Origin: Rheinheimera hassiensis
GTDB taxonomy: Bacteria; Pseudomonadota; Gammaproteobacteria; Enterobacterales; Alteromonadaceae
Reading direction: 5' to 3'
DNA: 64,000 bases
NCBI RefSeq assembly: GCF_022436675.1
Contig: NZ_JAKUJZ010000004.1
Coordinates: forward strand, 124,001 to 188,000
Part shown: piece by piece, positions 26,191 through 43,122 of the stretch
Layout: every line of letters starts with the position of its first letter
Position numbering within the stretch: position 1 is the first letter of the stretch
Program-made: the position numbers and the translations under genes
Notes under the pieces: generated by a model
Database searches by the model: none
The model's input: only the letters and a program-made list of their open reading frames with translations
What the model was told of the DNA's origin: nothing

Positions 26191-26194
26191 CACT

Positions 26195-27436: not shown

Positions 27437-27450
27437 TGTAACCGGTTACA
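27437..27450. promoter_or_regulatory. LacI-type operator 1
   Basis: The perfect palindrome TGTAACCGGTTACA, typical of LacI-family sites with a central CG, lies 87 bases before the MFS transporter start. It is identical to operator 4. Confidence 0.8.
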
Positions 27451-27537: not shown

Positions 27538-28740
27538 ATGCCTATCAGCATCCGACTTAAATTGTCGCTAATGATGTTTCTGCAGTTTTTTATCTGGGGC
27601 GCCTGGTTTGTTACCATGGGCACCTATCTGTCACAGCGTTTCTCTGCCTCCGGTGCACAAATGGGCATGGCGTATGAAACGCAGTCTATCGGCGCCATTA
27701 TCGCGCCTTTTATTATTGGCCTGATTGCCGACCGCTACTTTGCCGCCCAGAAAATTCTGGCGCTGTTGCATCTGGTAGGGGCGGCATTGTTGTTTAGTGC
27801 GGCCTACAGTGGCAGTTTTAGCAGCTTTTATCCCTATGTGTTGTTGTATATGGTGGTGTATATGCCAACGCTGGCGCTGGTTAATGCAATTAGCTTTCGC
27901 CAGTTGGCAGAAAAAACCGCGCAGTTTGCCCATATCCGTGTGTTAGGCACGGTTGGCTGGATCACCGCCGGTTTGTTAATTGGCTGGTTTGGCTGGGAAG
28001 GTAACCAGAATTTACAGTTCACCTTTATGCTGGCGGCCGGTGCGTCGTTAGCACTTGGTGTATTTAGTCTGACTCTGCCCGACACACCGCCGCAGGCCAC
28101 GCAGCAAAGGCCTACTATACGGCAACTGTTGGGGCTGGATGCACTGGCCTTACTAAAAGACCGCGCTTATCTGGTGTTTTTTCTGGCCTCGGTACTGATC
28201 TGTATTCCGCTGGCGTTTTATTATCAGAATGCCAACCTGTATCTGAACGATTTGGGCATCAGCGGCGCAGCGGCAAAAATGTCACTGGGGCAGATGTCTG
28301 AATTGGCCTTTATGTTATTGCTACCGTTATTTTTACGCCGTTACGGCATTAAAGCCACCTTGCTGGTAGGTATGCTGGCCTGGGTGCTACGTTATGTGCT
28401 GTTCGCTTACGGCAACAGCGGCGAGCAGTTGTGGATGTTGTTTTTTGGTATTTTACTGCACGGTATTTGTTATGACTTTTTCTTTGTCAGCGGCCAGATT
28501 TACACCGAGCAAAAAGCCGGTCGTGAGATAAAAGCCGCGGCACAGGGCCTGATCACACTGGCAACCTATGGCGTAGGTATGTTGCTGGGCTTCCGTCTGG
28601 CCGGTTATATCACCGATTTAAATCACCTGGACAGCGGTTACCAGTGGTGGCAAATCTGGTTAATTCCGGCCGGTATAGCGGCGCTGGTATTAGTGTTATT
28701 TGTATTAAGCTTTCCAAAACAGCGGCGGTTACCGGTGTAA
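27538..28740 (+). CDS. MFS transporter, nucleoside:H+ symporter-like
   Basis: A 400-residue carrier with 12 hydrophobic segments, opening with RLKLSLMMFLQFFIWGAWFVTMGTYLSQRF, characteristic of the NupG/XapB-type nucleoside:H+ symporter family, whose members in sugar clusters move other solutes. ATG 27538 has AGGGAAA upstream; ATG 27505, in frame, has no ribosome site. A LacI-type palindrome is 87 bases upstream, and the next genes are an oxidoreductase and sugar isomerase-like genes, so it probably imports a sugar, glycoside or keto-sugar. The exact substrate is unknown. Confidence 0.85.
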   Translation: MPISIRLKLSLMMFLQFFIWGAWFVTMGTYLSQRFSASGAQMGMAYETQSIGAIIAPFIIGLIADRYFAAQKILALLHLVGAALLFSAAYSGSFSSFYPYVLLYMVVYMPTLALVNAISFRQLAEKTAQFAHIRVLGTVGWITAGLLIGWFGWEGNQNLQFTFMLAAGASLALGVFSLTLPDTPPQATQQRPTIRQLLGLDALALLKDRAYLVFFLASVLICIPLAFYYQNANLYLNDLGISGAAAKMSLGQMSELAFMLLLPLFLRRYGIKATLLVGMLAWVLRYVLFAYGNSGEQLWMLFFGILLHGICYDFFFVSGQIYTEQKAGREIKAAAQGLITLATYGVGMLLGFRLAGYITDLNHLDSGYQWWQIWLIPAGIAALVLVLFVLSFPKQRRLPV

Positions 28741-28785
28741 CCGCAGCGGTGCTGCTTAGTAAGCAGCGTAAAATCTTTTCGGTGT

Positions 28786-28799
28786 TGTAACCGGTTTCA
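28786..28799. promoter_or_regulatory. LacI-type operator 2
   Basis: TGTAACCGGTTTCA differs from the perfect palindrome by one base and ends only 10 bases before the ATG of the oxidoreductase gene, next to its ribosome site. It sits in the 69-base gap between the MFS and oxidoreductase genes. Confidence 0.75.
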
Positions 28800-28809
28800 A
28801 GGGGTGGTA

Positions 28810-29973
28810 ATGGCACAAACAAAAGTCAGAATGGCGATGGTAGGTGGCGGGGAAGGCGCTTTTATCGGTGCGATACACCGCATCGCTGCGCGGCTGGATA
28901 ATCAGATCGAGCTGGTAGCGGGTTGCTTTAGCAGTAAGGCTGAGCGTAGTGCTGCTATGGCAGCACAGTTGGGTATCAGCACAGCGCGTTGCTATGATTC
29001 TTATCAGCAGTTGTTTGCTGCAGAAGCCCAACTGCCGCCAGAGCAACGGATAGAGTTTGTTACTATAGTGACGCCGAATCATTTGCATTTTCCGGTGGCT
29101 AAGGCCGCGTTGCTGGCCGGTTTTCATGTGTTGTCTGACAAACCTGCAACCTTGTCATTAGACGAAGCACTGCAATTACAGGCGCTGGTGCAGCAAACGG
29201 GCTTGCGTTATGGCTTAACCCACACTTATGCGGCTTACCCAATGGCATTACAGGCCAAATTATTAGTGCAGCAGGGCAATCTAGGTGCAGTGCGTCGTGT
29301 TGCCGTTAGCTACCCGCAAGGCTGGCTGGCAAATAAAGCCGACAGCGATGGCAGTGCTCAGGCGCAGTGGCGCTTAGATCCGGCCCGCTCCGGTATCAGT
29401 GGCTGCTTTGCTGATATTGGCACCCATGCGTTTCAACTGGCAGAGTTTGTCAGCGGGCTTGAAGTGACAGAGCTGTGCGCCGATCTGGTCACCGTAATAG
29501 ACGGCCGGCAGTTGGACGATGATGGCAGCGCCTTACTGCGCTTTAATAATGGTGCCCGCGGCACCTTGCTGGCCAGCCAGGTCTGTGCCGGCATGGGTAA
29601 TGGTTTGCAAATTAGTGTGTATGGCGAGCTGGGTTCGCTCAGTTGGCAGCAGGAGCAGCCGGATCAACTGATAGTGCAACTGCGCGGGCAGCCGCAGCAA
29701 ACCTGGCAGGCGGGCACGGATAAAGCCTATCTGGCTGAGCAGGTACGGGCCTGGTGCCGCACGCCAGCAGGGCACCCCGAGGGCTATCTGGAGGCTTTTG
29801 CCAATATTTATCGTGACTTTGCGCTGGCGTTACGCCAACCGACAACCAGCAACCTCGCAGCAGGTATTGAGCAGGCGGTGCGCGGCATGGCCTTTGTGCA
29901 GGCCGCGGTGGTAAGCAGCAGGCAAAATACAGCCTGGGTGAGCATCGCCGGGCAATACACTTTTACAGGATAA
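28810..29973 (+). CDS. Gfo/Idh/MocA-family oxidoreductase
   Basis: A 387-residue NAD(P)-dependent sugar dehydrogenase. The Rossmann start VRMAMVGGGEGAFIGAIHRIAARL has the GGGxGxxIG dinucleotide loop; EFVTIVTPNHLHFPVAKAALLAGFHVLSDKPATLSLDEAL gives the catalytic Lys in the family's EKP-type motif (here DKP); GISGCFADIGTHAFQLAEF holds the Asp/His pair. Members oxidise or reduce sugars at C1, C2 or C3, including 3-keto-sugars. ATG 28810 follows AAGGGG; GTG 28804 is also in frame. It lies seven bases before the next isomerase-like gene. In this setting it may reduce a keto-sugar product. Confidence 0.88.
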   Translation: MAQTKVRMAMVGGGEGAFIGAIHRIAARLDNQIELVAGCFSSKAERSAAMAAQLGISTARCYDSYQQLFAAEAQLPPEQRIEFVTIVTPNHLHFPVAKAALLAGFHVLSDKPATLSLDEALQLQALVQQTGLRYGLTHTYAAYPMALQAKLLVQQGNLGAVRRVAVSYPQGWLANKADSDGSAQAQWRLDPARSGISGCFADIGTHAFQLAEFVSGLEVTELCADLVTVIDGRQLDDDGSALLRFNNGARGTLLASQVCAGMGNGLQISVYGELGSLSWQQEQPDQLIVQLRGQPQQTWQAGTDKAYLAEQVRAWCRTPAGHPEGYLEAFANIYRDFALALRQPTTSNLAAGIEQAVRGMAFVQAAVVSSRQNTAWVSIAGQYTFTG

Positions 29974-29980
29974 TCAATGT

Positions 29981-31042
29981 ATGCTGACAAGCAAAATTAA
30001 AGGGCCAGCGATATTTCTGGCACAGTATCTGCCACCGGCCGGTGAGGCCTGTACATTAGAGTCATTATTACGCTGGGCGGCAGAGCTGGGATACAAAGGC
30101 GTGCAATTGCCAACCTGGGACAAACGCATTTTTGATTTAGAGCAAGCCGCGCATAGCCAGCAATATTGCGATGAGCTATTGGCATTGTGTCAGCGTTATC
30201 AGTTACACATTACCGAACTGTCGACCCATTTGCAGGGCCAGTTAATGGCTGTGCATCCGGCATACAATGAGCTGTATCAGGGCTTTGCCCCGGCGCAGGT
30301 GCAAACCGAAGTGCAGAAACAACAGTGGGCCACTGAGCAATTGTTGCTGGCTGCGCAGGCGTCAAAACGCCTAGGCCTCAGCTGTCATGTCACTTTCTCC
30401 GGTGCTCTGCTGTGGCATACCGTTTATCCATGGCCACAGCGCCCGGCCGGCCTGGTAGAGCAGGGCTTTGCCGAACTGGCGCGACGCTGGTTGCCGGTGC
30501 TGGATGCCTTCGATGCAGCAGGCATAGATGTATGCTTTGAGCTGCATCCGGGCGAAGATTTACACGATGGCTTATCATTTGAACGTTTTCTTAATGCCAC
30601 CGGGCAGCACCCGCGCGCCTGTATTTTGTATGATCCAAGCCACTTTCTGCTGCAGCAGATGGATTACCTGCAATTTATCGACTTTTATCATCAGCGAATC
30701 CGTGCGTTTCATGTTAAAGATGCCGAGTTTCGCCCCTCCGGTAAAGCCGGTGTTTATGGCGGCTACAGCAGCTGGTTGGAACGGCCGGGTCGGTTCCGTT
30801 CGCTTGGTGATGGCCAGATAGATTTCAATGCTATTTTCAGCAAACTGACACAATACGGCTACACCGGCTGGGCAGTGCTGGAGTGGGAATGCTGTTTAAA
30901 GCACCCGCAACAAGGTGCTGCAGAAGGCGCACCTTTTATCGCCAAACAGCTTATCTGTGTGGCTGAGCGGCCGTTTGATGATTTTGCCGGTGGGGCGACT
31001 GATGCTGGCCGCAACCGGCGTATTCTTGGTTTAACTGACTAA
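29981..31042 (+). CDS. Sugar isomerase/epimerase-like TIM-barrel protein
   Basis: A 353-residue protein of the xylose isomerase-like TIM-barrel family (AP endonuclease 2 superfamily). Seen are WAAELGYKGVQLPTWD, ELSTHLQGQLMAVHP, VCFELHPGEDLHDG, ILYDPSHFLLQQMD, RAFHVKDAEF and WAVLEWECCLKHP, giving the Glu, Asp, His and Glu metal ligands expected around the barrel. Members isomerise or epimerise sugars or keto-sugars; YcjR of E. coli, a 3-keto-sugar epimerase, is one example. It lies seven bases after the oxidoreductase gene. No signal peptide, so it is cytoplasmic. Confidence 0.85.
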   Translation: MLTSKIKGPAIFLAQYLPPAGEACTLESLLRWAAELGYKGVQLPTWDKRIFDLEQAAHSQQYCDELLALCQRYQLHITELSTHLQGQLMAVHPAYNELYQGFAPAQVQTEVQKQQWATEQLLLAAQASKRLGLSCHVTFSGALLWHTVYPWPQRPAGLVEQGFAELARRWLPVLDAFDAAGIDVCFELHPGEDLHDGLSFERFLNATGQHPRACILYDPSHFLLQQMDYLQFIDFYHQRIRAFHVKDAEFRPSGKAGVYGGYSSWLERPGRFRSLGDGQIDFNAIFSKLTQYGYTGWAVLEWECCLKHPQQGAAEGAPFIAKQLICVAERPFDDFAGGATDAGRNRRILGLTD

Positions 31043-31116
31043 GGTTCAATTTATACTCATGCAGGCGCTGCACAACAGCGCCGCTGCAAAAATAGACAAA
31101 AAATAACCAATCTGGC

Positions 31117-31145
31117 TTGACAAAATTCTGAGCCGGATTTAAGTT
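31117..31145 (+). promoter_or_regulatory. Possible promoter before the DUF1080 gene
   Basis: A perfect -35 box TTGACA (31117-31122) is followed 17 bases later by a poor -10, TAAGTT (31140-31145). LacI-type operator 3 starts seven bases downstream, over the predicted start site. The weak -10 keeps this tentative. Confidence 0.4.
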
Positions 31146-31151
31146 AAGTGA

Positions 31152-31165
31152 TGTAACCGGTTTCA
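31152..31165. promoter_or_regulatory. LacI-type operator 3
   Basis: TGTAACCGGTTTCA, identical to operator 2, is 92 bases upstream of the DUF1080 lipoprotein gene. Confidence 0.8.
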
Positions 31166-31257
31166 TTGGCAGTGTTCAAAGAATCACGCCAACAAAATAA
31201 TTATAACGAGCGGTACCGGCCAGCAACAGCGCTGGCTACAACAAGGGGAGCGTCAAC

Positions 31258-31995
31258 GTGATCAGAGTTAACTCGGGTGCGTTTTGTCGTACAGCAGCGA
31301 TCAGCCTGCTGTTGCTTGCAGCTGTTACCGGCTGTAAACCTGCACCAACTACTTCCGAAGGCATCTCTGATGCTGCTACACCTGATAAAACCACTACAGA
31401 AGTATCTGCTGACTGGCAATGGCTGTTTAATGGTGAATCTGCCGATGCATGGACTGACAAAAGCGGCAAACCGATTGGCGAGCAATGGCAAATTATCGAC
31501 AAGGCGCTGGTGCTTACAGCAGCTGGTGGCGGTGATATTGTCAGCAAGCAAAGCTTTACCGATTTTGAGCTGGAGCTGGAGTGGCAAATTGCCGCATCCG
31601 GCAACAGTGGTATCTTCTACAAGGTTAACCGGGAGGGTTGGTCCGGTGGTTTAGAATATCAGTTGCTGGATGACGATAATTATCCCGGCCATGACAACCC
31701 TATTCATTTTACTGCTTCATTATTTGATATTTACGCACCGCAAGTTGATGCTCATTTACCTGCCGGTAGCTGGAATCATACCCGCATTGTTGTGCGCCAC
31801 CCGCAGGTTGAGCACTGGCTTAATGGCAAGCTGGTACTGCAGTTTGAGTTAGGCTCCGCTGACTGGCAGCAGCGCGCTGCCAGCAGCAAATTTGCCCCTA
31901 AGCATGATATTGCTACTGCTGAGCCCGGGCATATTATGCTGCAAGACCATAATGACAAAATAGCTTTTCGTCAGATCCGGATCCGTGCCTTATAA
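31258..31995 (+). CDS. DUF1080 lipoprotein (3-keto-disaccharide hydrolase family)
   Basis: A 245-residue lipoprotein starting at GTG 31258 after AAGGGGAG; the lipobox is VTGC with Cys26. The DUF1080 core starts at WQWLFNGESADAWTDKSGKP and continues through FTDFELELEWQIAASGNSGIFYKVN, GLEYQLLDDDNYPGHD, SWNHTRIVVRHPQVEHWLNGKLV to IMLQDHNDKIAFRQIRIR, a jelly-roll (concanavalin-like) fold. Members act on glycosides already oxidised at C3, cleaving them by elimination/hydration. Placement with a GMC dehydrogenase and sugar isomerase-like genes supports that role. It would act in the periplasm or on the outer membrane. Confidence 0.88.
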   Translation: MIRVNSGAFCRTAAISLLLLAAVTGCKPAPTTSEGISDAATPDKTTTEVSADWQWLFNGESADAWTDKSGKPIGEQWQIIDKALVLTAAGGGDIVSKQSFTDFELELEWQIAASGNSGIFYKVNREGWSGGLEYQLLDDDNYPGHDNPIHFTASLFDIYAPQVDAHLPAGSWNHTRIVVRHPQVEHWLNGKLVLQFELGSADWQQRAASSKFAPKHDIATAEPGHIMLQDHNDKIAFRQIRIRAL

Positions 31996-32007
31996 CAGGA
32001 GCATGTT

Positions 32008-32913
32008 ATGGCTATTAACCGTCGCCATTTTTTATGTCGTACCTTTGCCGGGGCTGCTGTTGCCGGTTTAGCCAGCCAGCTGCCGCTAAGCTGGCCGTTG
32101 TTTGCTGCCAGCCCGGCGCAGCCAAAAATTTCACTGGCACAGTGGTCATTGCACCGTCAGCTGCGCTCCGGCCAGCTTAAGGTGTTGGATTTTGCTGTAA
32201 AAACCCGGCGCGATTTCCAACTCGGCGCTGTCGAATACGTAAATCAGTTCTTTGCTGACAAGGCGCAGGATCAAGCTTTCTTGCGTCAGTTAAAACAGCG
32301 CGCCGATGACAGCGGTGTCAGCAGCTTACTGATTATGGTCGACGCTGAAGGCGACCTGGCAGCAGTGGATGCAAAGCAGCGCCAGCAGGCAGTAGAAAAT
32401 CATTATAAGTGGGTTGAAGCTGCAGCGTTTTTAGGCTGCCATGCTATCCGTGTCAGCATTGCTGATAACGCCAAAACCGATGCATTAAAGATGCAACAGG
32501 CGGCAGTATTGGGCCTGCAACAATTGGCTGCTTTTGCCGCGCCCTTTGGTATCAGCATTATTGTCGAAAATCATATGGGCCACTCTATGGACGCCAACTG
32601 GCTGGCCACGGTATTACAACAGGCCGGTAATATTGGCAGCCTGCCGGATTTTGGTAACTTTAGCGGTGACAAATATCAGGGCACGCAATTACTGCTGCCG
32701 TTTGCCAAAGGTATCAGTGCTAAAACTTATGCCTTTGATGACAAAGGCGCTGAGAGCAGTATTGATTATCAGCGCATGTGGCAATTGATCCAAAACGCGG
32801 GTTATCAGGGCTATATCGGTATTGAATATGAAGGCGAAAATGCCGACGAAGATGCTGGTATCCGTGCAACGCGCGATTTACTGCTGGCAGTGGCCAATCA
32901 CGCCGGGCGTTGA
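32008..32913 (+). CDS. Exported TIM-barrel sugar isomerase/epimerase-like protein
   Basis: A 301-residue protein with an N-terminal Tat-type signal (INRRHFLCRTFAGAAVAGLASQ), so it is exported folded. The remaining barrel has SLAQWSLHRQLRSGQLKVLDF, CHAIRVSIADNAK, ISIIVENHMGHSMDANWLATVLQ, GSLPDFGNFSGDKYQG, ISAKTYAFDDKGAES and GIEYEGENADEDAG, the metal-ligand positions of xylose isomerase-like enzymes. An exported member next to a DUF1080 lipoprotein suggests both work in the periplasm on oxidised sugars. It starts 12 bases after the DUF1080 stop and ends in a clear terminator. Confidence 0.83.
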   Translation: MAINRRHFLCRTFAGAAVAGLASQLPLSWPLFAASPAQPKISLAQWSLHRQLRSGQLKVLDFAVKTRRDFQLGAVEYVNQFFADKAQDQAFLRQLKQRADDSGVSSLLIMVDAEGDLAAVDAKQRQQAVENHYKWVEAAAFLGCHAIRVSIADNAKTDALKMQQAAVLGLQQLAAFAAPFGISIIVENHMGHSMDANWLATVLQQAGNIGSLPDFGNFSGDKYQGTQLLLPFAKGISAKTYAFDDKGAESSIDYQRMWQLIQNAGYQGYIGIEYEGENADEDAGIRATRDLLLAVANHAGR

Positions 32914-32939
32914 GGTTAAATGCAATGCCCGGTTTTTTT
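32902..32939 (+). terminator. Rho-independent terminator after the exported isomerase-like gene
   Basis: CCGGGC (32903-32908) pairs with GCCCGG (32927-32932), with TTG/CAA extending the stem inward, and seven T residues follow. The left arm overlaps the last codons of the gene. LacI-type operator 4 begins 10 bases later. Confidence 0.85.
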
Positions 32940-32948
32940 GTCTGTCAG

Positions 32949-32962
32949 TGTAACCGGTTACA
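32949..32962. promoter_or_regulatory. LacI-type operator 4
   Basis: The perfect palindrome TGTAACCGGTTACA, identical to operator 1, lies 112 bases before the GMC dehydrogenase start and directly after the terminator. Confidence 0.8.
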
Positions 32963-33074
32963 GGGTGGCGTTTGAGTGAGTGGTTCCTAGCCAGCAGACC
33001 GTTAGCAGTCGGGCCGGCATAATTATTATAACAAAGCGCACCGTTACAAAGTGTGCAGACGAGGAGAGTGCAAG

Positions 33075-34871
33075 ATGTCAGGAGCATCCGGACAACAGGA
33101 ATATGATGTAATCGTAGTTGGCTCTGGGGCCGGCGGCGGTATGTCAGCATTAATATTGAGCATTGCCGGGTTAAAGGTATTAATGCTTGAAGCAGGGCGG
33201 CATTATGACCCGGTAACCGAAACGCCGATGTTTAATCTACCCAAAGAGGCGCCGCTACGCGGAGCCAGCACACCGGACAAACCCTTTGGTTTTTATGATG
33301 CCACCATCGACGGGGGCTGGCAGGTGCCGGGTGAACCTTATACCCAGGCCAGCCGTGAGCCACAGCAACGTTTTGACTGGTGGCGGGCCCGCATGCTCGG
33401 CGGGCGTACCAACCACTGGGGCCGTATTTCACTGCGTAACGGCGAATATGACTTTAAACCCTACAGCCGCGATGGCCTGGGCTTTGACTGGCCAATAAAC
33501 TATGCCGATTTAGCGCCCTACTACGATAAAACCGAAATGTTAATTGGCGTGTACGGTGAAACTGGCCACGGCCTGGAAAACACGCCGGATTCGCCCGAAG
33601 GCATTTTACAACCAGCCCCCAAGCCGCGCGCTTATGAGCTGCTGGCAAAAAAGTCCTGTGATGAACTGAATATTCCGGTGATCCCGGCGCATCTGGCTAT
33701 TTTAAGCCAGCGTCAGGACCACACCCGGCTACCGGCGAAGCTGTTTCCTAACAGTGAACTAGGGCAAAAAGTGGTGGCCGATTCTATGCAATCCCGCGCT
33801 GCCTGCTTCTGGGCCACACCGTGTGGCCGTGGCTGCTCTATTAAAGCCAATTTCCAGTCAACTACGGTGTTAATTCCACCTGCACTGGCCACTGGCAATC
33901 TGACCATTATTACCGATGCTATGGTGCGCGAAGTGACGCTGAATAAGGCCGGTAAAGCAGACGGTGTGATTTACATTGATAAAAACAGCCGCGAAGAAGT
34001 GAAAGTAAAAGGCCGCGCAGTTGTGGTAGCTGCCAGTGCAGCAGAAACGGCGCGGATTTTCCTTAACTCGCGCAGCCCATTATTTCCGGACGGCATTGCC
34101 AACAGTTCCGGTCTGGTGGGTAAATACCTGATGGATACTGTCGGTGCCGGCGTCGGCGGGCAAATTCCTGCACTGGAAAATCTGCCGCCGATGAATGAAG
34201 ACGGTTCCTCTGGTATGCATCTGTATCAACCATGGTGGCTGTACAAGCAACAAAAGGCCGGCAAGCTGAATTTTGCCCGTGGTTATCACATTGAAATGAG
34301 CGGTGGCCGTGGCATGCCGGGGGCCGGTGCTTTTGGTGGCCTGCAAAGTTTTACTGAAGGCGCATACGGTGCCGATTTTAAACAGGCATGCCGGCGCTAT
34401 TACGGTACCTTTGTGCACTTTGATGGCCGTGGCGAGATGATCCCGAACGAAAACAGCTATGCCGAACTGGACCCGACAGTAGTGGACCAGTGGGGTATAC
34501 CGGTGCTGAAGTTTCACTGGCAATGGTCCGAGCATGAGATAAATCAGGCGGCGCATATGCAGAAAACCTTCGCCGACATTATTACCGGTATGGGCGGAAA
34601 GGTAACCAGCAACATAGAAACTGACGGCCGCAAAGCCATCATGAACGGCGGCGCCATTATTCACGAAGTAGGTGGCACCATTATGGGCGCTGATCGCAAA
34701 AAGTCGGTGTTAAATCAGCATTGTCAGGCCTGGGATGTACCCAACCTGTTTGTCACCGACGGCGCACCTTTTGCGTCTAACGCCGATAAAAACCCCACTC
34801 TGACTATTCTGGCGCTGGCCTGGCGCACCAGTGATTACATTGTTGAACAGTTCAAGCAAAGGAATATTTAA
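33075..34871 (+). CDS. GMC-family dehydrogenase, large subunit (glucoside 3-dehydrogenase-like)
   Basis: A 598-residue FAD enzyme. ATG 33075 follows GAGGAGAG. The FAD loop is VIVVGSGAGGGMSALIL (about 15-31), MLGGRTNHWGR is the second flavin-contact motif, a Cys cluster region occurs at CFWATPCGRGCS, and the GMC C-terminal domain ends GGTIMGADRKKSVLNQHC...NPTLTILALAWR with the catalytic His and Asn. It has no signal of its own; enzymes of this group are carried out by the Tat signal of the small subunit, encoded next. Known relatives oxidise gluconate, sorbitol or glycosides at C3. With DUF1080 and isomerase-like genes nearby, a glucoside 3-dehydrogenase is likely. No cytochrome c electron acceptor is encoded in the window. 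Confidence 0.88.
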   Translation: MSGASGQQEYDVIVVGSGAGGGMSALILSIAGLKVLMLEAGRHYDPVTETPMFNLPKEAPLRGASTPDKPFGFYDATIDGGWQVPGEPYTQASREPQQRFDWWRARMLGGRTNHWGRISLRNGEYDFKPYSRDGLGFDWPINYADLAPYYDKTEMLIGVYGETGHGLENTPDSPEGILQPAPKPRAYELLAKKSCDELNIPVIPAHLAILSQRQDHTRLPAKLFPNSELGQKVVADSMQSRAACFWATPCGRGCSIKANFQSTTVLIPPALATGNLTIITDAMVREVTLNKAGKADGVIYIDKNSREEVKVKGRAVVVAASAAETARIFLNSRSPLFPDGIANSSGLVGKYLMDTVGAGVGGQIPALENLPPMNEDGSSGMHLYQPWWLYKQQKAGKLNFARGYHIEMSGGRGMPGAGAFGGLQSFTEGAYGADFKQACRRYYGTFVHFDGRGEMIPNENSYAELDPTVVDQWGIPVLKFHWQWSEHEINQAAHMQKTFADIITGMGGKVTSNIETDGRKAIMNGGAIIHEVGGTIMGADRKKSVLNQHCQAWDVPNLFVTDGAPFASNADKNPTLTILALAWRTSDYIVEQFKQRNI

Positions 34872-34872
34872 C

Positions 34873-35538
34873 ATGGCAGATCATAACTATAACGACAGTA
34901 GCAATACCAACTTAAAACGCCGGGATGCCTTAAAGCTGCTGGCAACAGCCGCCGTAGCTATGCCGGTACTGGGTATGGCTGGCCATGCCGCGGCGGTAAC
35001 CGCGAAAACCAAGGGCGCCGAGCTGATTTACCGGCCCACCGATCCGGATATGCTAAAGCCGGTAATACCCTGGTCAATGACACTTACTCAGGCCGAGCTG
35101 GATGATCTGGCGGTGCTGGCAGACATTATTATTCCGGCTGATGCACAGTCACCTTCGGCGGCCAGCCTGGGCGCGCAGCACTTTATTAATGAATGGGTGA
35201 GTGCGCCTTATCCGCAACAAAAAGCCGATCTGGTGTTGATACGTGGCGGCTTGGTCTGGTTAAACGGCGAAGCCAAAAAACGCTTTGGTAAAGCCTTCGC
35301 CAAACTCAGTGCTACTGAGCAACGGCAAATTTGTGACGATATCTGTTTTGAACCCAAAGCAACAGCCAATTTAAAGCACGGTGCCCGCTTCTTTGCCAAA
35401 GTGCGCGATTTAACTGCCACAGCCTTTTACACCACTGAACCCGGTATGGCCGACATCGGCTATATCGGTAATAAACCTATGGCCAATTTTGATGGCCCGT
35501 CTGATGAGGTGCTGCGCAAACTGAAACTAAAAAGTTAA
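34873..35538 (+). CDS. GMC dehydrogenase small subunit (gluconate 2-dehydrogenase subunit 3 family)
   Basis: A 221-residue partner of the GMC dehydrogenase. ATG 34873 comes one base after the large-subunit stop, with AAAGGA upstream; a longer frame from 34831 is embedded in that gene. It has a twin-arginine signal (LKRRDALKLLATAAVAMPVLG), then the family core LTQAELDDLAVLADIIIPADAQSPSAASLGAQHFINEWV and the end GMADIGYIGNKPMANFDGPS. The small subunit stabilises the large one and supplies the Tat export signal. No clear terminator follows before the third TonB receptor. Confidence 0.88.
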   Translation: MADHNYNDSSNTNLKRRDALKLLATAAVAMPVLGMAGHAAAVTAKTKGAELIYRPTDPDMLKPVIPWSMTLTQAELDDLAVLADIIIPADAQSPSAASLGAQHFINEWVSAPYPQQKADLVLIRGGLVWLNGEAKKRFGKAFAKLSATEQRQICDDICFEPKATANLKHGARFFAKVRDLTATAFYTTEPGMADIGYIGNKPMANFDGPSDEVLRKLKLKS

Positions 35539-35675
35539 ACCAGAGCCCTTTGTTAAGTGGGGCCGCTCGAGAATGACACAAGTAAAAAAAACAGGGTTCT
35601 GACTGCGTTTAGGCGGTAAGAGAAACTCATTGCTCAGAACAATAGTTAAAACTAAAAAAATGAGAGCAACACACT

Positions 35676-38642
35676 ATGTACAGTAAAAACAGGTACAATA
35701 AAACGGGGAATACCACGCAGCCTGCAAGGTTGCGCAAACACCGGCTGGCACAGGCAGTAAGCCTGAGCCTGCTATTAACGGCCGGCTGTAATACTGCTCT
35801 GGCACAGGAAGCTGAGCCAGCGACAGAAGCCAAAGCCGAAGCTGAAATTGAAGTAGTACAGGTGCGGGGTATCCGTGCCAGTATGGCCGAGAATATGGCG
35901 ATCAAACGCTTATCCAGTGCAGTGGTGGATGCCATTACCGCCGAGGATATCGGTAAATTCCCGGATAAAAACGTTGCCGATTCCTTGCAACGCGTGCCAG
36001 GCGTAGTGATCCAGCGTGACGGTGGCGAAGGCTCAACCGTGAGTATCCGTGGTTTATCGTCTGATCTGACCTTTACCCAGCTAAACGGCAACTTTATTGC
36101 ATCGTCCCCTGGCGAGCCATCGCGCTCCTTTGACTATACCCTGCTGCCATCGGCGATGATCCAGACAGTCGAAGTATTTAAATCGCCCGAAGCCCGGCTG
36201 GATGCTGGTGGTGTTGGCGGTACCGTACTGCTGCATACGCGTAAACCATTTGATATGGACGCCAATTCCGGCGTGTTAAATATTGAGTCGACCTATGCCG
36301 ATGTCACCGACAAGCATGAACCGCAGTTTACCGGCGTGTATTCATGGAAAAACGAAGCTGAAAGCATGGGCCTGCTGGTGGGTTATACCCGGCAAAACCG
36401 CACCAGCCGTGTGCTGTCTGGTGGTACCGATTCCAATATCTGGCGCTGGAGTGGCGTAGCAGATACAGCTGTAGATGTTAATGGCAACCCGGTAGATAAC
36501 AATAACAACTGGGCAGCTCTGACGGATGCACAGGGTAATGTTTATAACGGGGTCTGGTTTCCGCAGGTGGCCCGGGTTGGCGTTACCAAAGAAGAGCGCG
36601 AGCGCGAGGGCTTGCAGCTAACCGGACAATGGCGGCCAACTGACCGGCTGGAGCTGGGGTTTAACTACTTTGGTTTTACCCTGGGCCAGGACAGAACCCG
36701 CTCAGGGGTGTCGATGCCGGAGTGGTCATTAAACCCTAATTTTCTTAGCGGCGTAACGCTGGATGAATCCGGTACCATTATTACCGGCATGGACTATACC
36801 GTCGGCGCCGGTGGCGCAGAAAACGACTTGCAGTTTCCGTGGATGAATGGCAGCTATGTCAGGGAAGAATCTACCTCTGATACTTTCGATTTTAACCTCA
36901 GCTACGAGGGTGACACTTACCGCTTGAAACTGGTCGCCGGTAACACTGAGGCTAAAGGCGGGCCCAAAGAAAGCTGGGATGTGGCGTATAAAAGTTCAAA
37001 CTGGGGCGAAAACCAACCCTTTATTGAGAATGCTGCTCAATATGCCGGCTGGGCGCTGGGCGATCGTATGTCGATGTATATGGACCCAAACACGCTCACC
37101 AACTTGTTAAGTGGTGTCGGCGGAGGCCGTGACCCGGGCTCGTCTAACTCCAGCTTTGTGCGCAGCACGTTAGAAGAGCGCTACTATCAGCTTGATCTTG
37201 ATTTTGATGTAGACTGGGGAATTTTTACCCTGGTTCGCACTGGCTTAAAATTCCGAGATGCCAAACTGCATCGCGAAACCGGCAATAACTTTTTCCTGGC
37301 GCCGGATTTTGACGTTGAAGGTGCGCTGGCCAGTGGCCGCGGTATAGACCAGTTTGACAGCTATCAGTGGAACGGTGGTATGCCACTGGCAAAAGACGTA
37401 CTAAAAGCGAATGGCGAAGGTAATATTGCCGGTGGCTTTGATATTAACCTGATGCCGGTAGTAGACTGGGATAAGTACCGCGACATTATTTTAAGCAACT
37501 ACAAACCCTATACCCGGATTGAAGATAATTTTGTCTATAACATCCGCGAGCAAGGCCAGGCATTTTACCTGCAGGGCGATTTCAGCTTTGGTGATTTCCG
37601 TGGTAACACCGGTGTGCGGGTAGTAAAAACCAAAACCACCGGCGAATCGACCGATTTATATACCTACTTTCTTGATCATACCGACGATGTAACCGGTTTA
37701 CCTGTTACCGGCGATGCCCGCTTTGTCGAAAACTGGCAGTTAATATCGCAAACCACCGAAGAAACCTATGTGCTACCCAGCCTGAACCTGGTATGGGACG
37801 CTGGTGATAACCTGGTCGTGCGTGGCGCCCTGGCAAAAGTGATGTCACCGCCAGGCTACGGTGATTTGGGCAGCCAGGAGCGTATCAGCTTTGTTTCAGA
37901 TGAATGGGCAGATGATCGCGCCGCCTTTAATACCCAACCGGGTTTTAGCGGTAGTGGTGGTAATAAAAACCTGAAACCGTTTGAATCTATGCAGGCCGAT
38001 CTGTCAATCGAGTACTACTACGGCACCGGCTCAGCAGTGGGCATGGCGTTGTTTTATAAAGACGTTGATAACTTTGTCGTGCCACTAATCATTGATTCGG
38101 TGCGCGATTTTGCCGGCGAGCCGGGTGTGGTTGAGCCGGGTCAGATCACCGTCAGCCCATACAGCACTGTGGGGAATGGCTCTAATGCCAAGTCGCAGGG
38201 TGTGGAGCTATTTATCCAGCATGCTTTTGACAATGGCTTTGGCCTTAATGCCAACTATACCTACAACAAAACTAACCAGGCTGATGTTAATGTCGATGGC
38301 GAAAAGTTCGGTGAATCGCCATTGGTAGGCAGTGCCAAGTACCAATACAACCTGTCGGCGTTTTACGAAACAGATGATTACAGTATCCGTGCGTCTTATA
38401 ACAAACGCGGTGAAACGGTATTGGGTATTAACAGTGGCTTAAACGTGTATCAGGACCCATACGATCAAATAGATGTAAATGCCTCCTATGCCCTGACAGA
38501 GCGTTGGCTGCTAAGCGCATCGGTTATCAACCTGACTAAATCTGAATCAACATCCAGATTAGGTAACGACACCGATGCGCGTTTTTTAAGCAATAGCTAC
38601 TCTGGCCGGCGTTATTACGCAGGTATTACGTTTAATTTCTGA
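35676..38642 (+). CDS. TonB-dependent receptor, probable glycan transporter
   Basis: A 988-residue outer-membrane receptor with a long N-terminal leader (RKHRLAQAVSLSLLLTAGCNTALAQ, cleavage near residue 44), a TonB box-like segment (IEVVQVRGIR), plug (DKNVADSLQRVPGVVIQRDGGEGSTVSIRGLSSDLTFTQLNG) and a barrel ending FNF. This leader and plug are typical of the large carbohydrate-related TBDR group in Alteromonadales. It differs clearly from the two paralogues at 7-15 kb. GAGAG precedes the start. The next gene, a discoidin-repeat lipoprotein, starts 29 bases downstream and may be its surface partner. Confidence 0.92.
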   Translation: MYSKNRYNKTGNTTQPARLRKHRLAQAVSLSLLLTAGCNTALAQEAEPATEAKAEAEIEVVQVRGIRASMAENMAIKRLSSAVVDAITAEDIGKFPDKNVADSLQRVPGVVIQRDGGEGSTVSIRGLSSDLTFTQLNGNFIASSPGEPSRSFDYTLLPSAMIQTVEVFKSPEARLDAGGVGGTVLLHTRKPFDMDANSGVLNIESTYADVTDKHEPQFTGVYSWKNEAESMGLLVGYTRQNRTSRVLSGGTDSNIWRWSGVADTAVDVNGNPVDNNNNWAALTDAQGNVYNGVWFPQVARVGVTKEEREREGLQLTGQWRPTDRLELGFNYFGFTLGQDRTRSGVSMPEWSLNPNFLSGVTLDESGTIITGMDYTVGAGGAENDLQFPWMNGSYVREESTSDTFDFNLSYEGDTYRLKLVAGNTEAKGGPKESWDVAYKSSNWGENQPFIENAAQYAGWALGDRMSMYMDPNTLTNLLSGVGGGRDPGSSNSSFVRSTLEERYYQLDLDFDVDWGIFTLVRTGLKFRDAKLHRETGNNFFLAPDFDVEGALASGRGIDQFDSYQWNGGMPLAKDVLKANGEGNIAGGFDINLMPVVDWDKYRDIILSNYKPYTRIEDNFVYNIREQGQAFYLQGDFSFGDFRGNTGVRVVKTKTTGESTDLYTYFLDHTDDVTGLPVTGDARFVENWQLISQTTEETYVLPSLNLVWDAGDNLVVRGALAKVMSPPGYGDLGSQERISFVSDEWADDRAAFNTQPGFSGSGGNKNLKPFESMQADLSIEYYYGTGSAVGMALFYKDVDNFVVPLIIDSVRDFAGEPGVVEPGQITVSPYSTVGNGSNAKSQGVELFIQHAFDNGFGLNANYTYNKTNQADVNVDGEKFGESPLVGSAKYQYNLSAFYETDDYSIRASYNKRGETVLGINSGLNVYQDPYDQIDVNASYALTERWLLSASVINLTKSESTSRLGNDTDARFLSNSYSGRRYYAGITFNF

Positions 38643-38671: not shown

Positions 38672-41401
38672 ATGAAAACAATACAACAACGTCAGCTACT
38701 GTGCGCCATGGCAGCGGCATTAGCGGTGCTAACCGGCTGCGACAGTGGTGAAACACCGGATGTCAATAATGCACCAACACCGGTATCAACCTCAGCCGAG
38801 ATCAGCGCCAGCGCAGTAAAAGGTATTTTAACCGGCGCCGCTGTCAGTGTCAGTGCGTTAAATGGCACAACGGTAAACAGCACTGCCGCGCAAACTGACA
38901 GCAGCGGTATGGCCGCTACCACCCTTACATCAGCACCGGGTTATGCTTTTAGCGCAGTACACAAGCTGGCGGTTACCACTACCGCCGACAGCAGCATGCT
39001 GTGTGACCTTAGCCTGTGCGGCGAAACAGCCTTAGGTGCTGCGGTCGGCGCAGACGCGCTGGGAGAGGTAACATTAACTAACCTGTTCTGGTTAAAAGCG
39101 CCGCTTGGTGCTGCTGCCGACGGCACCGCTGATGCTACGGTGCAGGTTAATGCCCTAACCACTTTTGCCAGCCAGTTGCTGGAGGCCGCTATTACCGGTG
39201 GGCGTAATGTGTCGGCACTGGCGACGCTGGAGCCAGCGCAGCTGGAGTATTCCGCGCAGTTGCTACGCATTCTCGGCGTTGACATGCCGGCAATAAACCT
39301 GATGCAGCAACCGCTACTCAGCGCTGATAGCACAGAAAACTTTGCCCAAAGCAACAACCAGTTGATTCGGTTGTCCTTTGTTAATGCGGCCTTTGCCCAC
39401 ATTGGTGCTGAAGCAACCCTGGCCGATACGTTCGCTGCCGCAGCAGCACAGGTAGCGCTGGCGGCAGAGGGTGATGAGGCGGCAGCCACAGCACTGCGCC
39501 AACAGTTACTCGATGCATTGCAGGGCCATCCGGTGCTGGCAGAGCTGGGTTTAACCCCAGACAGCATTATTGATATTGAACTGCCATTAGTACTGGCTAA
39601 TAACAGCAGCGGGCCTATTCGTGAATATACCACTGCGGCCTATTTAGCCGGCGCGCAAATAAGCTTCCGCGGCGCTATCAGCGATGGCGAAAGTGGTGAC
39701 CAGGCCTTTGACGGCAGTGTCGACACTAAATGGCTGGATAATACCGGCGTGCCCAGCGCAGAAGCACCAGCCTGGTTAACGCTGCAGTTTGCGCAGCCGC
39801 AAGCTATCAGTGTGTTGTCTATTACCAGCGCCAACGATGCGCCAGACCGCGACCCGGAAAACTTTAACCTGCAAGCCTCTAACGATGGTGAAAGCTGGTT
39901 TACGTTGGGGCAGTGGGCCGGTATCAGCTTTGAGCAGCGCTTAACCGCGCAGGATTTTGCCTTTAATAACAGCCTGCCGTACAGCTATTACCGGCTGAAC
40001 ATCACGAAAAATAAAGGCGACACTAACTTAATGCAACTGGCTGAAGTGCAGTTATTTGGCCCGGTGTATGCCGACCAAATTCAGCAAGGCGGCAGCATCA
40101 GCGCCAGCGGTGCCATTGGCGATGCAGAAAGCGCCGATATGGCGTTTGACGGTTTGCTGAGCACAAAGTGGCTGGACAACACTGCGGTACCAACGGCAGA
40201 GCAACCAGCTTGGGTACAGGTGCAGTATAGCGAAGCAAAAGCTGTTAGTAGCATCGCCATTAGCAGCGCCAATGATGCGCCTGAGCGCGACCCGGAAAAC
40301 TTTAACCTGCAGGCCTCTAATGATGGTGTCAGCTGGCTGACATTAGGCGAATGGGCCGGTGAGAGTTTCGATAGCCGTGGTCAGCGTCGTTTATTCAGTA
40401 CCAGTAATAGCCTGGCGTATAACTACTACCGGCTTAATATCAGCAAAAACAAAGGTGACAACAGTTTAATGCAAATTGCTGAAATTGAGCTTATCGGGCC
40501 TGCAATGCCAGCGCTGAATCATGCTTTAACCGCTACAGCGGTAACCTCCAGTGGTGCTATTAGTGAAGCCGAAGCGGCCGACTATGCCTTTGATGGTGAC
40601 AGCCAGACTAAGTGGCTGGATAACACTGCAGTGCCAACTGTCGATGCACCGGCCTGGGCCAGTGTTGTTCTGGCAGAGCCGCAAGCGGTGAATATGCTGG
40701 CGCTGGTTAGTGCTAATGACGCGCCGGATCGCGATCCGGAAAACTTCAGCCTGTTAGCCTCTAATGATGGCGAATCCTGGGTAAACCTGGGCCAATGGGC
40801 TGGGATCAGTTTTAACGGGCGCGCCGAGCGGCAAACGTTTGCCATCGCCAATGCATTGGGCTACAGCCATTACCGGCTGAATATCACTAAAAACAAAGGT
40901 GATAGCGCCTTAATGCAGGTAGCAGAAATTGAGCTGATAGGCCCGCAGGTGCAGGCGCAGGATCACAGTGATAATGCCGCAGCACAGGTTACTGAGCGTG
41001 CTGCTATCAGTGATGGCGAAGCGGGCTCTATGGCGTTTGATAATAACCCGGCAACCAAATGGCTGGATAACGGCGGTGTACCGTCGGTTGAAGCGCCATC
41101 CTGGCTGGAAATTAGCTTGCCAGAAGCGGTGATTGTTAATACCTTTGCTCTGACCAGTGCAAACGATGCGCCGGACCGCGATCCGGAGAACTTCCGTCTG
41201 CTTGGCTCAAACGATGGTGAAAGCTGGCAGGTACTGGGTGACTGGGCAGGTGAAAGTTTCGCAGCCCGTGCCGAGCGGCGCAGCTTCAGCCTGTTAAATG
41301 GCCGCAGCTTCAGCCACTACCGCATTGAGATCACAAAAAACAAAGGTGATACCAATTTAATGCAGGTGGCAGAATTTGAGCTGATTGGACCGGTGCTATA
41401 A
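38672..41401 (+). CDS. Lipoprotein with four tandem discoidin-like (F5/8 type C) repeats
   Basis: A 909-residue lipoprotein (lipobox LTGC, Cys23). Residues about 35-310 form an Ala/Ser/Thr-rich region with an Ig- or carboxypeptidase-regulatory-like start (ASAVKGILTGAAVSVSAL). Four repeats of about 146 residues follow at roughly 319-466, 467-611, 613-759 and 762-909. Each contains AFDG...TKWLDN, DAPDRDPENFNLQASNDGESW, LGQWAG and YYRLNITKNKGD..LMQ.AE, a pattern of galactose-binding F5/8C domains. It probably sits on the outer surface and binds glycan for the TonB receptor encoded just upstream. I know no named family for the entire protein. A strong terminator follows. Confidence 0.8.
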   Translation: MKTIQQRQLLCAMAAALAVLTGCDSGETPDVNNAPTPVSTSAEISASAVKGILTGAAVSVSALNGTTVNSTAAQTDSSGMAATTLTSAPGYAFSAVHKLAVTTTADSSMLCDLSLCGETALGAAVGADALGEVTLTNLFWLKAPLGAAADGTADATVQVNALTTFASQLLEAAITGGRNVSALATLEPAQLEYSAQLLRILGVDMPAINLMQQPLLSADSTENFAQSNNQLIRLSFVNAAFAHIGAEATLADTFAAAAAQVALAAEGDEAAATALRQQLLDALQGHPVLAELGLTPDSIIDIELPLVLANNSSGPIREYTTAAYLAGAQISFRGAISDGESGDQAFDGSVDTKWLDNTGVPSAEAPAWLTLQFAQPQAISVLSITSANDAPDRDPENFNLQASNDGESWFTLGQWAGISFEQRLTAQDFAFNNSLPYSYYRLNITKNKGDTNLMQLAEVQLFGPVYADQIQQGGSISASGAIGDAESADMAFDGLLSTKWLDNTAVPTAEQPAWVQVQYSEAKAVSSIAISSANDAPERDPENFNLQASNDGVSWLTLGEWAGESFDSRGQRRLFSTSNSLAYNYYRLNISKNKGDNSLMQIAEIELIGPAMPALNHALTATAVTSSGAISEAEAADYAFDGDSQTKWLDNTAVPTVDAPAWASVVLAEPQAVNMLALVSANDAPDRDPENFSLLASNDGESWVNLGQWAGISFNGRAERQTFAIANALGYSHYRLNITKNKGDSALMQVAEIELIGPQVQAQDHSDNAAAQVTERAAISDGEAGSMAFDNNPATKWLDNGGVPSVEAPSWLEISLPEAVIVNTFALTSANDAPDRDPENFRLLGSNDGESWQVLGDWAGESFAARAERRSFSLLNGRSFSHYRIEITKNKGDTNLMQVAEFELIGPVL
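39625..41398 (+). repeat. Four tandem in-frame repeats of about 440 bp
   Basis: The coding repeats of the lipoprotein are spaced roughly 438-447 bases apart, judged from the position of the conserved DRDPENF codons near 39845, 40288, 40727 and 41173. The protein is highly conserved between copies while third codon positions differ. Confidence 0.8.
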
Positions 41402-41471: not shown

Positions 41472-42377
41472 ATGTTAACTGTAAGCTCTGCACTGTTTGC
41501 CGGTATCGATGCTGGCGGCAGCCATTGCCGGGTGCGGCTGGAAGATGAAACTGGCAACCTGCTTGGCGAAGGCCATTCCGGCGCGGCGAACCTCGGGCTG
41601 GGCTGGGCACAGGTTGAAGCCAATGTTAGGCAAGCGCTAAATAGCGCTTTGTTGCAGGCCGGGCTGGACAGCACTGCTTATGCGCGTTTGCATGTGGGGG
41701 CCGGTTTTGCCGGTGCCCATCTGGCCGGGTTAAAAGCCACAGCGTTAAAGTGGCAGCACCCTTTTGCCAGCTGGCACGTTACCACCGATTTACACGCAGC
41801 CTGTTACGGCGCTCACGGCGGCGAGCCCGGCAGTGTGATTGTTCTTGGCACCGGCTTTAGTGCGATCGGGCTAACTGAACATGGCGAAACCCTGCTTGGT
41901 GGCTACGGCTTTCCAATCAACGCTGTCTGCAGTGGTTCCGGTTTGGGGTTACAGGCCGTGCAGGCCGTATTGCTGGCACTGGATGCTCTGGCACCGGAAA
42001 CAAAGCTGACAGCCTTATTGCAGCACCATTTTAACGGCGGTGCAGTGCTAATGGCAGAGCAACTTCTGCAGGCTACACCGCAACAATATGCTGAGCTGGC
42101 GCCGCTGGTGTTTCAGGCGGCAGACAGCGGTGATGCGGTTGCGTTGGCTATGCTGCAACAGGCATTCGATTTTATCACCAGGCTTAACCAGCAACTGCCG
42201 CAAGGCCGTTGTTGCCTGCTGGGGGGCGTGGGGCAGCGCTTACTAACTTACCTGCCGCCAGCACAACATAGCCGCTTTAGTGCGCCGCTGGCCCCGGCAA
42301 CGGTAGGGGCTATTTATTATGCCCGCCGCCAACTGGCCGTTGCTGCGCAGGAGGCTAAGCTGTATGGCGCAAATTGA
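41472..42377 (+). CDS. BadF-family GlcNAc kinase-like protein
   Basis: A 301-residue sugar kinase of the same BadF/BadG group as the gene at 21683, but only distantly similar. The phosphate-1 loop is GIDAGGSHCRVRL (about 11-23), phosphate-2 VLGTGFSAIGL (about 125-135), and the sugar region YGFPINAVCSGSGLGLQAVQAVL. GlcNAc is the likely substrate because a glycosylasparaginase gene, which frees GlcNAc-type sugars, is in the same operon. It overlaps cutC by 14 bases. Whether it acts on GlcNAc or another hexosamine cannot be read directly. Confidence 0.8.
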   Translation: MLTVSSALFAGIDAGGSHCRVRLEDETGNLLGEGHSGAANLGLGWAQVEANVRQALNSALLQAGLDSTAYARLHVGAGFAGAHLAGLKATALKWQHPFASWHVTTDLHAACYGAHGGEPGSVIVLGTGFSAIGLTEHGETLLGGYGFPINAVCSGSGLGLQAVQAVLLALDALAPETKLTALLQHHFNGGAVLMAEQLLQATPQQYAELAPLVFQAADSGDAVALAMLQQAFDFITRLNQQLPQGRCCLLGGVGQRLLTYLPPAQHSRFSAPLAPATVGAIYYARRQLAVAAQEAKLYGAN

Positions 42378-43122
42378 AATTTGTCTTGATAGCGACAGCT
42401 GCTACCTTACGCAGAATATCCGCACCGTTTGCGCTGCCGGTATTGACAGCATTGAGCTTTGCAGCCAGATGGCGCAGCAGGGCTTATCTGTCAGTGCGGA
42501 CGCTTTGCGTCAGGCTCGTGCGGCCTGTAATTCGCATACGCAGCTGCGGGTTATGCTCAGGCCCAGAGCCGGTAATTTTGTCTATTCGCAGCCAGAACAG
42601 CAGCAAATCCAGGCGCAGTTACTGCAAGCAGCAAAACTGGGTGCTGATGGCATAGTGGTAGGTGCATTAACAACAGATGCGCAGCCCGATCTGCCGTTTT
42701 TAACCGGTTTGTTGCAACAGAGCCGGCAACTGGGCCTGGCTTGCACTTTTCACCGTGCTTTTGACGCCTGCACCAGCCCGGCAGAAACGGTAGAGCAACT
42801 GCTGGCATTAGGCGTACAGCGGCTATTAAGCAACGGCACACCCTGGCAGCAACAGCAAAGCATAACGCAGGGCGTACGCCAGTTGGCAACCTTGCAGCAG
42901 TATATTGCCGGGCGGCTGATGCTGGTGGCAGGTGGCGGTGTTACGTTGGCCAACTTGCCGCAGCTGCAGCAAACACTTCACGACAATACACAGCTGTGCT
43001 GGCATTTGCATTCGGCGGTGCTTACCGACGGTAAAGTCGATAGTGCTAAGCTGGAGCGACTACAACATTGCCTGACTGAACGGGCTGGGTCACACCAGCA
43101 ACAAGGAGAGCCACATGCTTAA
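42364..43122 (+). CDS. cutC: CutC-family protein
   Basis: A 252-residue TIM-barrel protein of the CutC family (IEICLDS, AGIDSIELCSQMAQQGLS, RVMLRPRAGNFVY, GADGIVVGAL, CTFHRAFDAC, VQRLLSNGTPW, LMLVAGGGVTLANLPQL). The start at ATG 42364 has AGGAGG nearby and lies within the end of the kinase gene; a longer frame from 42319 is less likely. CutC was named for copper homeostasis, but that role is disputed and the gene is often found with sugar genes, as here between a GlcNAc kinase-like gene and a glycosylasparaginase. A carbohydrate-related enzymatic role is my inference. Confidence 0.88.
   Translation: MAQIEICLDSDSCYLTQNIRTVCAAGIDSIELCSQMAQQGLSVSADALRQARAACNSHTQLRVMLRPRAGNFVYSQPEQQQIQAQLLQAAKLGADGIVVGALTTDAQPDLPFLTGLLQQSRQLGLACTFHRAFDACTSPAETVEQLLALGVQRLLSNGTPWQQQQSITQGVRQLATLQQYIAGRLMLVAGGGVTLANLPQLQQTLHDNTQLCWHLHSAVLTDGKVDSAKLERLQHCLTERAGSHQQQGEPHA

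Follow-up and report, generated by a model that had tools for sequence, protein, structure and literature searches.

The window analysed here, a stretch of 64,000 nucleotides from Rheinheimera hassiensis (contig NZ_JAKUJZ010000004.1, positions 124,001 to 188,000), carries an island built around a GMC family dehydrogenase, its small subunit and a DUF1080 lipoprotein. This island probably serves to break down a glycoside by oxidative (3-keto) deglycosylation, a judgement that concerns the core chemistry and not the substrate. The reading is based on gene content, shared operators, co-inheritance, a close hydratase match, and conserved iron-sulphur and catalytic residues. That glycosides can be cleaved oxidatively, and not by glycoside hydrolases alone, has been recognised only lately, and many substrates of such cleavage in nature have yet to be named.

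A first-pass annotation, made from the letters alone, had proposed such a pathway from seven genes. These encode the GMC dehydrogenase with a small subunit exported by twin-arginine translocation (Tat), the DUF1080 lipoprotein, two xylose isomerase-like proteins (XylI1 and the Tat-exported XylI2), a Gfo/Idh oxidoreductase and an importer of the MFS family. Gene list and family profiles confirm all seven in the places assigned to them. For the core the oxidative pathway is borne out as far as sequence tells, by the DUF1080 family, by a 64% match of XylI1 to a hydratase and by a Tat partner like that of the dehydrogenase GlycDH. Neither of the observations named there as refuting the pathway was made, one of the two being checked only in half. 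The end given to the unit, at 35538, was too early: it runs to 44101, which doubles the length of the island.

XylI1 is identical in 222 of 346 residues (64%, 531 bits) to PDB entry 8RO4, a '2-hydroxy-3-keto-glucal hydratase' which we take to be AtHYD, and is predicted to have the same activity. Its presumed substrate, 2-hydroxy-3-keto-glucal, is an intermediate of C3-oxidation/elimination pathways, and the closeness of the match therefore means that the kind of pathway is already known. The Gfo/Idh protein is proposed to be a cytosolic 3-keto-sugar reductase. Its best solved relative is 3v5n (340 bits), its best chains are named merely 'oxidoreductase', and its match to the 'Sugar 3-ketoreductase' 3rbv is weak (E 4e-6).

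The enzyme cleaving the 3-keto-glycoside would, by homology, be the DUF1080 lipoprotein. It scores 159 bits to PF06439, the 3-keto-disaccharide hydrolase family (cut-off 26.8), and aligns with solved family members across its length. Its affinity to characterised members stands at the level of family and alignment. XylI2 is the weakest part of the pathway assignment. Its closest solved chain is the uncharacterised 4ovx, and its weak C-terminal matches (E 0.0003-0.004) include chains of EuCGD 7EXB and PuCGE 7EXZ (E 0.003-0.004), C-glycoside deglycosidases which cleave 3-keto-glycosides by elimination. An AlphaFold model of XylI2 from 10 close orthologues reached a mean predicted local distance difference test score (pLDDT) of 52 and was left unused.

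We propose that the GMC protein is a glycoside 3-dehydrogenase with a 3Fe-4S site. Its Cys244, Cys250 and Cys254 align with the 3Fe-4S ligands Cys212, Cys218 and Cys222 of the Burkholderia cepacia dehydrogenase BcGDH and, together with His530 and Asn573, are invariant in all 34 aligned sequences. Numbering is from the ATG at 33075, most likely the true start; the small subunit most likely begins at 34873, one base past the GMC stop codon, and bears the twin-arginine motif KRRDALKLL near its N-terminus. The GMC model, with a pLDDT of 76, is good enough for use, but the score falls below 50 in the Fe-S loop (residues 245-259), so the cluster geometry is not readable from the model. We found no CXXCH haem-c motif on either strand in stop-free segments of at least 60 codons in the island or at least 100 codons in the window, the rest of the genome not having been searched; for the window, this bears out the lack of a cytochrome c remarked on at first pass. 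Where the lactose dehydrogenase LacABC of Caulobacter crescentus is made of three components, only two are encoded here. The third component of LacABC is reportedly a cytochrome c acting in electron transfer.

The LacI-type operator pattern TGTAACCGGTTACA matches the window four times at up to two mismatches, against 0.27 matches expected and a shuffle maximum of three. With one mismatch allowed, all 4.7 Mb of the genome contain four sites (one for the reversed control pattern), each of them in the island, 5' of the MFS, Gfo/Idh, DUF1080 and GMC genes. Seven other genomes of the genus carry the island and have operators before the same genes; one of them (G007), whose island lacks the MFS, Gfo/Idh and XylI1 genes, keeps the other two. 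Judged by these sites, the genes for MFS, Gfo/Idh, XylI1, DUF1080, XylI2, GMC and small subunit can be taken as one regulon, the term already applied to them in the first-pass annotation.

A LacI protein of 337 residues has its gene between those of XylI1 and DUF1080 in two carriers (G013 and G017) and at locus L079; in G007 the gene lies immediately 5' of DUF1080. The corresponding gap in the window (31043-31257, 215 bases) can be aligned with locus L077 at 81% over 207 columns, the match taking in the final ~47 bases of LacI there (L077 7002-8015) and the spacer behind it. Therefore the regulator gene of the island looks deleted in this lineage, with a short 3' remnant left and the four operators persisting. 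Among the ten LacI proteins of the genome, the nearest (L013, 51%) belongs to another GMC/DUF1080 system, a paralogue of this one located on contig C22, and may cross-regulate the island. The five carriers without an island LacI are the same five that have a C22-type GMC, and the loss in these close relatives may have been a single event.

The extent of the island follows from comparison within the genus. NagX was found in all 25 genomes and, with the MurNAc/GlcNAc (N-acetylmuramic acid/N-acetylglucosamine) genes upstream of it, belongs to the core. A GGDEF-EAL gene, starting at 44200 in the window, lies directly 3' of NagX at seven of the 15 island-free loci compared (15 of 17 genomes; G010, with a split NagX, and G015, with NagX near a contig end, were left out). 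The 16.6-kb stretch after NagX (27.5-44.1 kb) is therefore best read as one accessory insertion. The GGDEF-EAL gene went unmatched at the other eight island-free loci and in carriers G002, G007, G014 and G017.

The GMC orthologue (at least 96% identity) is present in eight of the 25 genomes and glycosylasparaginase, the last gene of the island, in the same eight, never one without the other. Further genes of the second half (TonB-dependent receptor, F5/8 type C (F5/8C) lipoprotein, NagK-like kinase and CutC) are likewise matched in eight of eight carriers. Being linked and co-inherited, the genes give evidence for one unit, not for independent co-selection. Hydratase homologues were detected in seven of 16 genus genomes, six with the window-type GMC and one (G011) with the C22-type; the other nine have weak partial GMC matches at most. 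The GMC protein itself is 96-100% identical across carriers and its neighbours far less so (in G013, 96% for GMC, 68% for the kinase and 54% for CutC), which suggests that it is exceptionally constrained or has been exchanged recently.

Beyond Rheinheimera, the close relatives of GMC among the best 80 of 364 matches have 66-73% identity and come, by record title, mostly from Gemmatimonadota and Verrucomicrobiota. Gene presence was counted by tblastn at 73 non-Rheinheimera GMC loci, 12 of them under 12 kb long. The small subunit is present at 72, DUF1080 at 26 (22 within ~2.5 kb), Gfo at 20, XylI1 at 17 and MFS at one; DUF1080 was matched at 0 of 15 Rheinheimera NagX loci, a weak control. XylI2, glycosylasparaginase, kinase and F5/8C lipoprotein were found at none of the 73 and CutC at one. 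A close GMC relative stands with its small subunit in five Verrucomicrobiota records (L097, L100, L104, L113, L122), where DUF1080, hydratase and Gfo all went unmatched over the stretch covered.

We can outline how the products might act together. The TonB-dependent receptor and F5/8C lipoprotein would bring the glycoside across the outer membrane. Once in the periplasm, the glycoside would be oxidised at its C3 hydroxyl by GMC and the small subunit, with FAD and the 3Fe-4S cluster handing the electrons on to an acceptor whose gene lies elsewhere. The bond, now labile, would be broken by the DUF1080 lipoprotein, XylI2 or both, through elimination or a net hydrolysis. The MFS protein would import the 3-keto product, XylI1 would hydrate 2-hydroxy-3-keto-glucal to the 3-keto-sugar and Gfo/Idh would reduce the latter to an ordinary hexose.

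Similar chemistry is described for other bacteria. The Agrobacterium tumefaciens operon GlycDH-AtOGE-AtHYD-Gfo oxidises, eliminates, hydrates and reduces; in the 2023 account (PMC10628242) the hydrating enzyme is, on preliminary evidence, the second protein called 'sugar phosphate isomerase', a Gfo oxidoreductase takes the last step, and the C3-oxidising GlycDH (Rhizobium; AEX01166.1) is accompanied by a 'TAT-pathway signal protein'. The island resembles this operon in its flavin dehydrogenase with a Tat partner, two xylose isomerase-like proteins and Gfo reductase, and differs in adding DUF1080, an exported TIM barrel, glycosylasparaginase, CutC, a kinase and a TonB receptor. The Caulobacter lacABC-DUF1080 locus, which supports use of lactose and also of salicin, shares with it a multi-component dehydrogenase, DUF1080, a transporter, two epimerases and a reductase, as well as oxidation in the periplasm and cleavage proposed to take place there (PMC9007349). 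The order and substrate had seemed unfamiliar at first pass. This did not hold for the kind of set, which serves lactose use in Caulobacter, and held for the package: the kind of pathway is known from Agrobacterium and from Caulobacter lactose use, the package of genes is new.

Bacteroides thetaiotaomicron also combines C3 oxidation with DUF1080, in BT2158, a periplasmic glycoside 3-dehydrogenase (PMC11300592), and BT2157, a 3-ketotrehalose hydrolase; the Caulobacter DUF1080 protein is named as a putative 3'-ketolactose hydrolase (PMC9007349). Unlike in the window, where the dehydrogenase is a GMC protein, the BT2158 model matches Gfo/Idh, although the Gfo/Idh of the window reaches no more than 27 bits with that model (cut-off 750). 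Like the window pair, BcGDH joins a GMC catalytic subunit, in which three Cys align as 3Fe-4S ligands, to a Tat hitchhiker. It differs in oxidising the first hydroxyl of glucose and in having a tri-haem cytochrome subunit, which was not found in this window (PMC6719666).

Several observations weigh against the 3-keto pathway. DUF1080 is unmatched at 47 of the 73 non-Rheinheimera GMC loci, many of them from Opitutae. XylI2 does not come out as an AtOGE-type beta-eliminase, AtOGE (8BVK) being absent from the eight chains it matches at E <=0.01, and before a conserved Lys both XylI2 and 4ovx have Ser where three C-glycoside deglycosidase chains, read by eye, have His. The GMC model is nearest, by Foldseek, to fructose and glucose dehydrogenases, at only 22-25% identity. 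Glucose and fructose dehydrogenases are electron-transfer dehydrogenases, not oxidases, and act on carbons other than C3; the proposal of C3 oxidation therefore rests on gene context. These nearest structures, along with the naming of the small subunit family after gluconate 2-dehydrogenase, would suit an ordinary dehydrogenase of sugars or polyols (acting at C1, C2 or C5) in a cluster that oxidises free sugars and cuts no glycoside. We consider that improbable, given the low identity to the solved structures; moreover, we know of no role of DUF1080 or the hydratase in gluconate- or fructose-dehydrogenase pathways. A far slighter chance falls to catabolism of inositol-like cyclitols, in which Gfo/Idh would be the inositol dehydrogenase and XylI1 the inosose dehydratase. 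Scores of 70 bits for XylI1 to IolE and 66 bits for Gfo/Idh to IolG point that way, but both are far under the curated cut-offs (290 and 355), XylI1 reaches 531 bits to the keto-glucal hydratase chain, and a DUF1080 protein does not fit.

What the 3-keto pathway would act on is a separate question, on which the second half of the island bears. From GMC to glycosylasparaginase all genes point in the same direction with gaps of at most 137 bases. The glycosylasparaginase scores 466 bits to solved bacterial glycosylasparaginase chains, whose mature beta chains align from residue 184. No operator, at up to three mismatches, precedes the TonB receptor (TBDR2) or kinase genes in the window or in seven orthologous loci. 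The 137-base spacer before TBDR2 (35539-35675) likewise has no operator and contains a block of ~85 bases, nearly identical in eight genomes, that could be a promoter or leader; it is possible that the second half is under its own promoter, separate from the GMC operator.

Parts of this half recur elsewhere. In two Pseudoalteromonas plasmid regions CutC and a BadF kinase adjoin Gfo-hydratase-MFS-DUF1080-GMC-small subunit; one of these kinases was scored and is NagK-like (242 bits, under the cut-off of 370). Two further Pseudoalteromonas records have CutC, hydratase and GMC matches within ~9 kb. Among plasmid records with glycosylasparaginase, five of 15 were examined. In three Hymenobacter plasmids (L186, L187, L188) the glycosylasparaginase gene overlaps CutC, as in the island; unlike the island, these loci have the glycoside hydrolase GH92 nearby (all three; GH18 and nagB in one), and none has a GMC gene annotated within the stretch shown. 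A more distant GMC lies one gene away from GH92 in Hymenobacter volaticus. CutC also adjoins glycosylasparaginase in two other gammaproteobacterial genomes, of one genus (L176, L177; sample of 369).

As to the substrate, the guess that we favour, at odds well below even, is a glycoprotein diet: the cells would live on N-glycan remnants, glycosylasparaginase, CutC and kinase finishing the GlcNAc-Asn (N-acetylglucosaminyl-asparagine) stub in coupling to the 3-keto pathway. In its full form, which we consider unlikely, the 3-keto pathway would be dedicated to such remnants. The dehydrogenase would act on a 2-acetamido sugar or on a sugar linked to GlcNAc-Asn, and elimination would free GlcNAc-Asn for glycosylasparaginase, CutC and N-acetylglucosamine kinase. 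Such an accessory island, with its own operators and a glycosylasparaginase, offers a testable substrate class, N-glycan stubs. Against it, no PNGase, endoglycosidase, GH92 or GH18 was found among the island genes scanned, and two other glycosylasparaginase regions have no annotated CutC. Furthermore, the glycoasparagine link appears limited to Rheinheimera, partly Pseudoalteromonas and loosely Hymenobacter, because glycosylasparaginase, kinase and F5/8C lipoprotein are absent from all 73 other GMC loci and CutC from all except one.

It stands about evenly, in our estimate, whether the same 3-keto core serves ordinary plant, algal or milk-type glucosides, the half with glycosylasparaginase, CutC, kinase and TonB receptor being a fellow traveller with a separate job. 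This alternative competes with the N-glycan idea only, and its likelihood overlaps with that given to the core. Caulobacter uses lactose with a similar gene set lacking the extras (PMC9007349), and the missing operators before TBDR2 and kinase, as well as the absence of glycosylasparaginase and kinase at the 73 loci, agree with it. It is opposed by the joint occurrence of GMC and glycosylasparaginase in one insertion, eight times and never apart, by the closely spaced, codirectional genes between them, and by CutC and BadF kinase beside oxidative genes in Pseudoalteromonas.

In Rheinheimera, Hymenobacter and one more genus of Gammaproteobacteria, CutC genes, labelled 'copper homeostasis', lie right beside glycosylasparaginase genes or overlap them. 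From this arrangement CutC may act in glycoasparagine breakdown and not in copper handling; if true, a protein annotated for copper would be a working part of that breakdown, and the island is a setting for finding its function. In the open-access literature we found no paper pairing glycosylasparaginase with CutC, and for joint mention of DUF1080, N-glycan, 3-keto-glycoside or 3-keto-disaccharide hydrolase nothing beyond an iron-deficiency paper.

Table 1. Features of the island (positions in the window; operators are LacI-type and are kept in orthologous loci retaining the gene that follows).
Feature	Position	Strand	Evidence and proposed role
Operator TGTAACCGGTTACA	27437..27450		5' of MFS importer
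MFS importer (Nuc_H_symport)	27538..28740	+	PF03825 394 bits; proposed importer of 3-keto product
Operator TGTAACCGGTTTCA	28786..28799		5' of Gfo/Idh
Gfo/Idh/MocA oxidoreductase	28804..29973	+	Family profiles; proposed cytosolic 3-keto-sugar reductase, substrate inferred
XylI1, predicted 2-hydroxy-3-keto-glucal hydratase (HYD)	29981..31042	+	64% identity to 8RO4; signal peptide not seen
Probable 3'-end remnant of deleted LacI gene	31061..31110	+	Alignment of gap with L077
Operator TGTAACCGGTTTCA	31152..31165		5' of DUF1080
DUF1080 lipoprotein	31258..31995	+	PF06439 159 bits, lipobox; proposed periplasmic 3-keto-glycoside-cleaving enzyme
XylI2, Tat-exported xylose isomerase-like TIM barrel	32008..32913	+	Proposed 3-keto-glycoside lyase or keto-sugar isomerase
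Operator TGTAACCGGTTACA	32949..32962		5' of GMC
GMC FAD dehydrogenase	33075..34871	+	Proposed glycoside 3-dehydrogenase with 3Fe-4S site
GMC small subunit (Gluconate_2-dh3, PF13618), Tat hitchhiker	34873..35538	+	PF13618 80 bits; role by analogy to BcGDH and the GlycDH Tat partner
TonB-dependent receptor (TBDR2)	35676..38642	+	Second half of island
Lipoprotein with four F5/8 type C stretches	38672..41401	+	Proposed glycan binder
BadF-type, N-acetylglucosamine-kinase-like protein	41472..42377	+	NagK_SO3507 251 bits, under curated cut-off 370
CutC family protein	42364..43122	+	PF03932 149 bits
Glycosylasparaginase (GlcNAc-Asn amidase)	43115..44101	+	Tat motif and lipobox; 466 bits to solved bacterial chains

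Upstream of the island lies a conserved MurNAc/GlcNAc block (19577-27388) with NamZ, MurQ, a BadF kinase, an SSS symporter, a large NagZ-like GH3 and NagX; the block accompanies NagX in the genus genomes compared. We considered a peptidoglycan link, with NamZ, MurQ, MurK, the symporter, GH3 and NagX as an amino-sugar regulon, and rejected it as part of the unit, because NagX occurs in 25 of 25 genomes, the block stands without the island in the 15 island-free genomes compared (the SSS match missing in G020) and no operators precede its genes.

The genome of the window has two more sets of GMC, small subunit and DUF1080 genes, one on C22 (L052) with two xylose isomerase-like genes and LacI and one on C51 (L051) alone. 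The hydratase is single-copy in this genome, and no match to the window hydratase, Gfo or MFS was found in 19.9 kb around each of the two sets. In G007 the Gfo/Idh, XylI1 and MFS trio, absent from the island, is present beside a second, C51-type set of DUF1080, GMC and small subunit. The C22 and C51 sets may thus share the hydratase, reductase and MFS protein of the window, which suggests that paralogous clusters of the same genome may draw on a single hydratase/reductase/importer set and a single LacI regulator.

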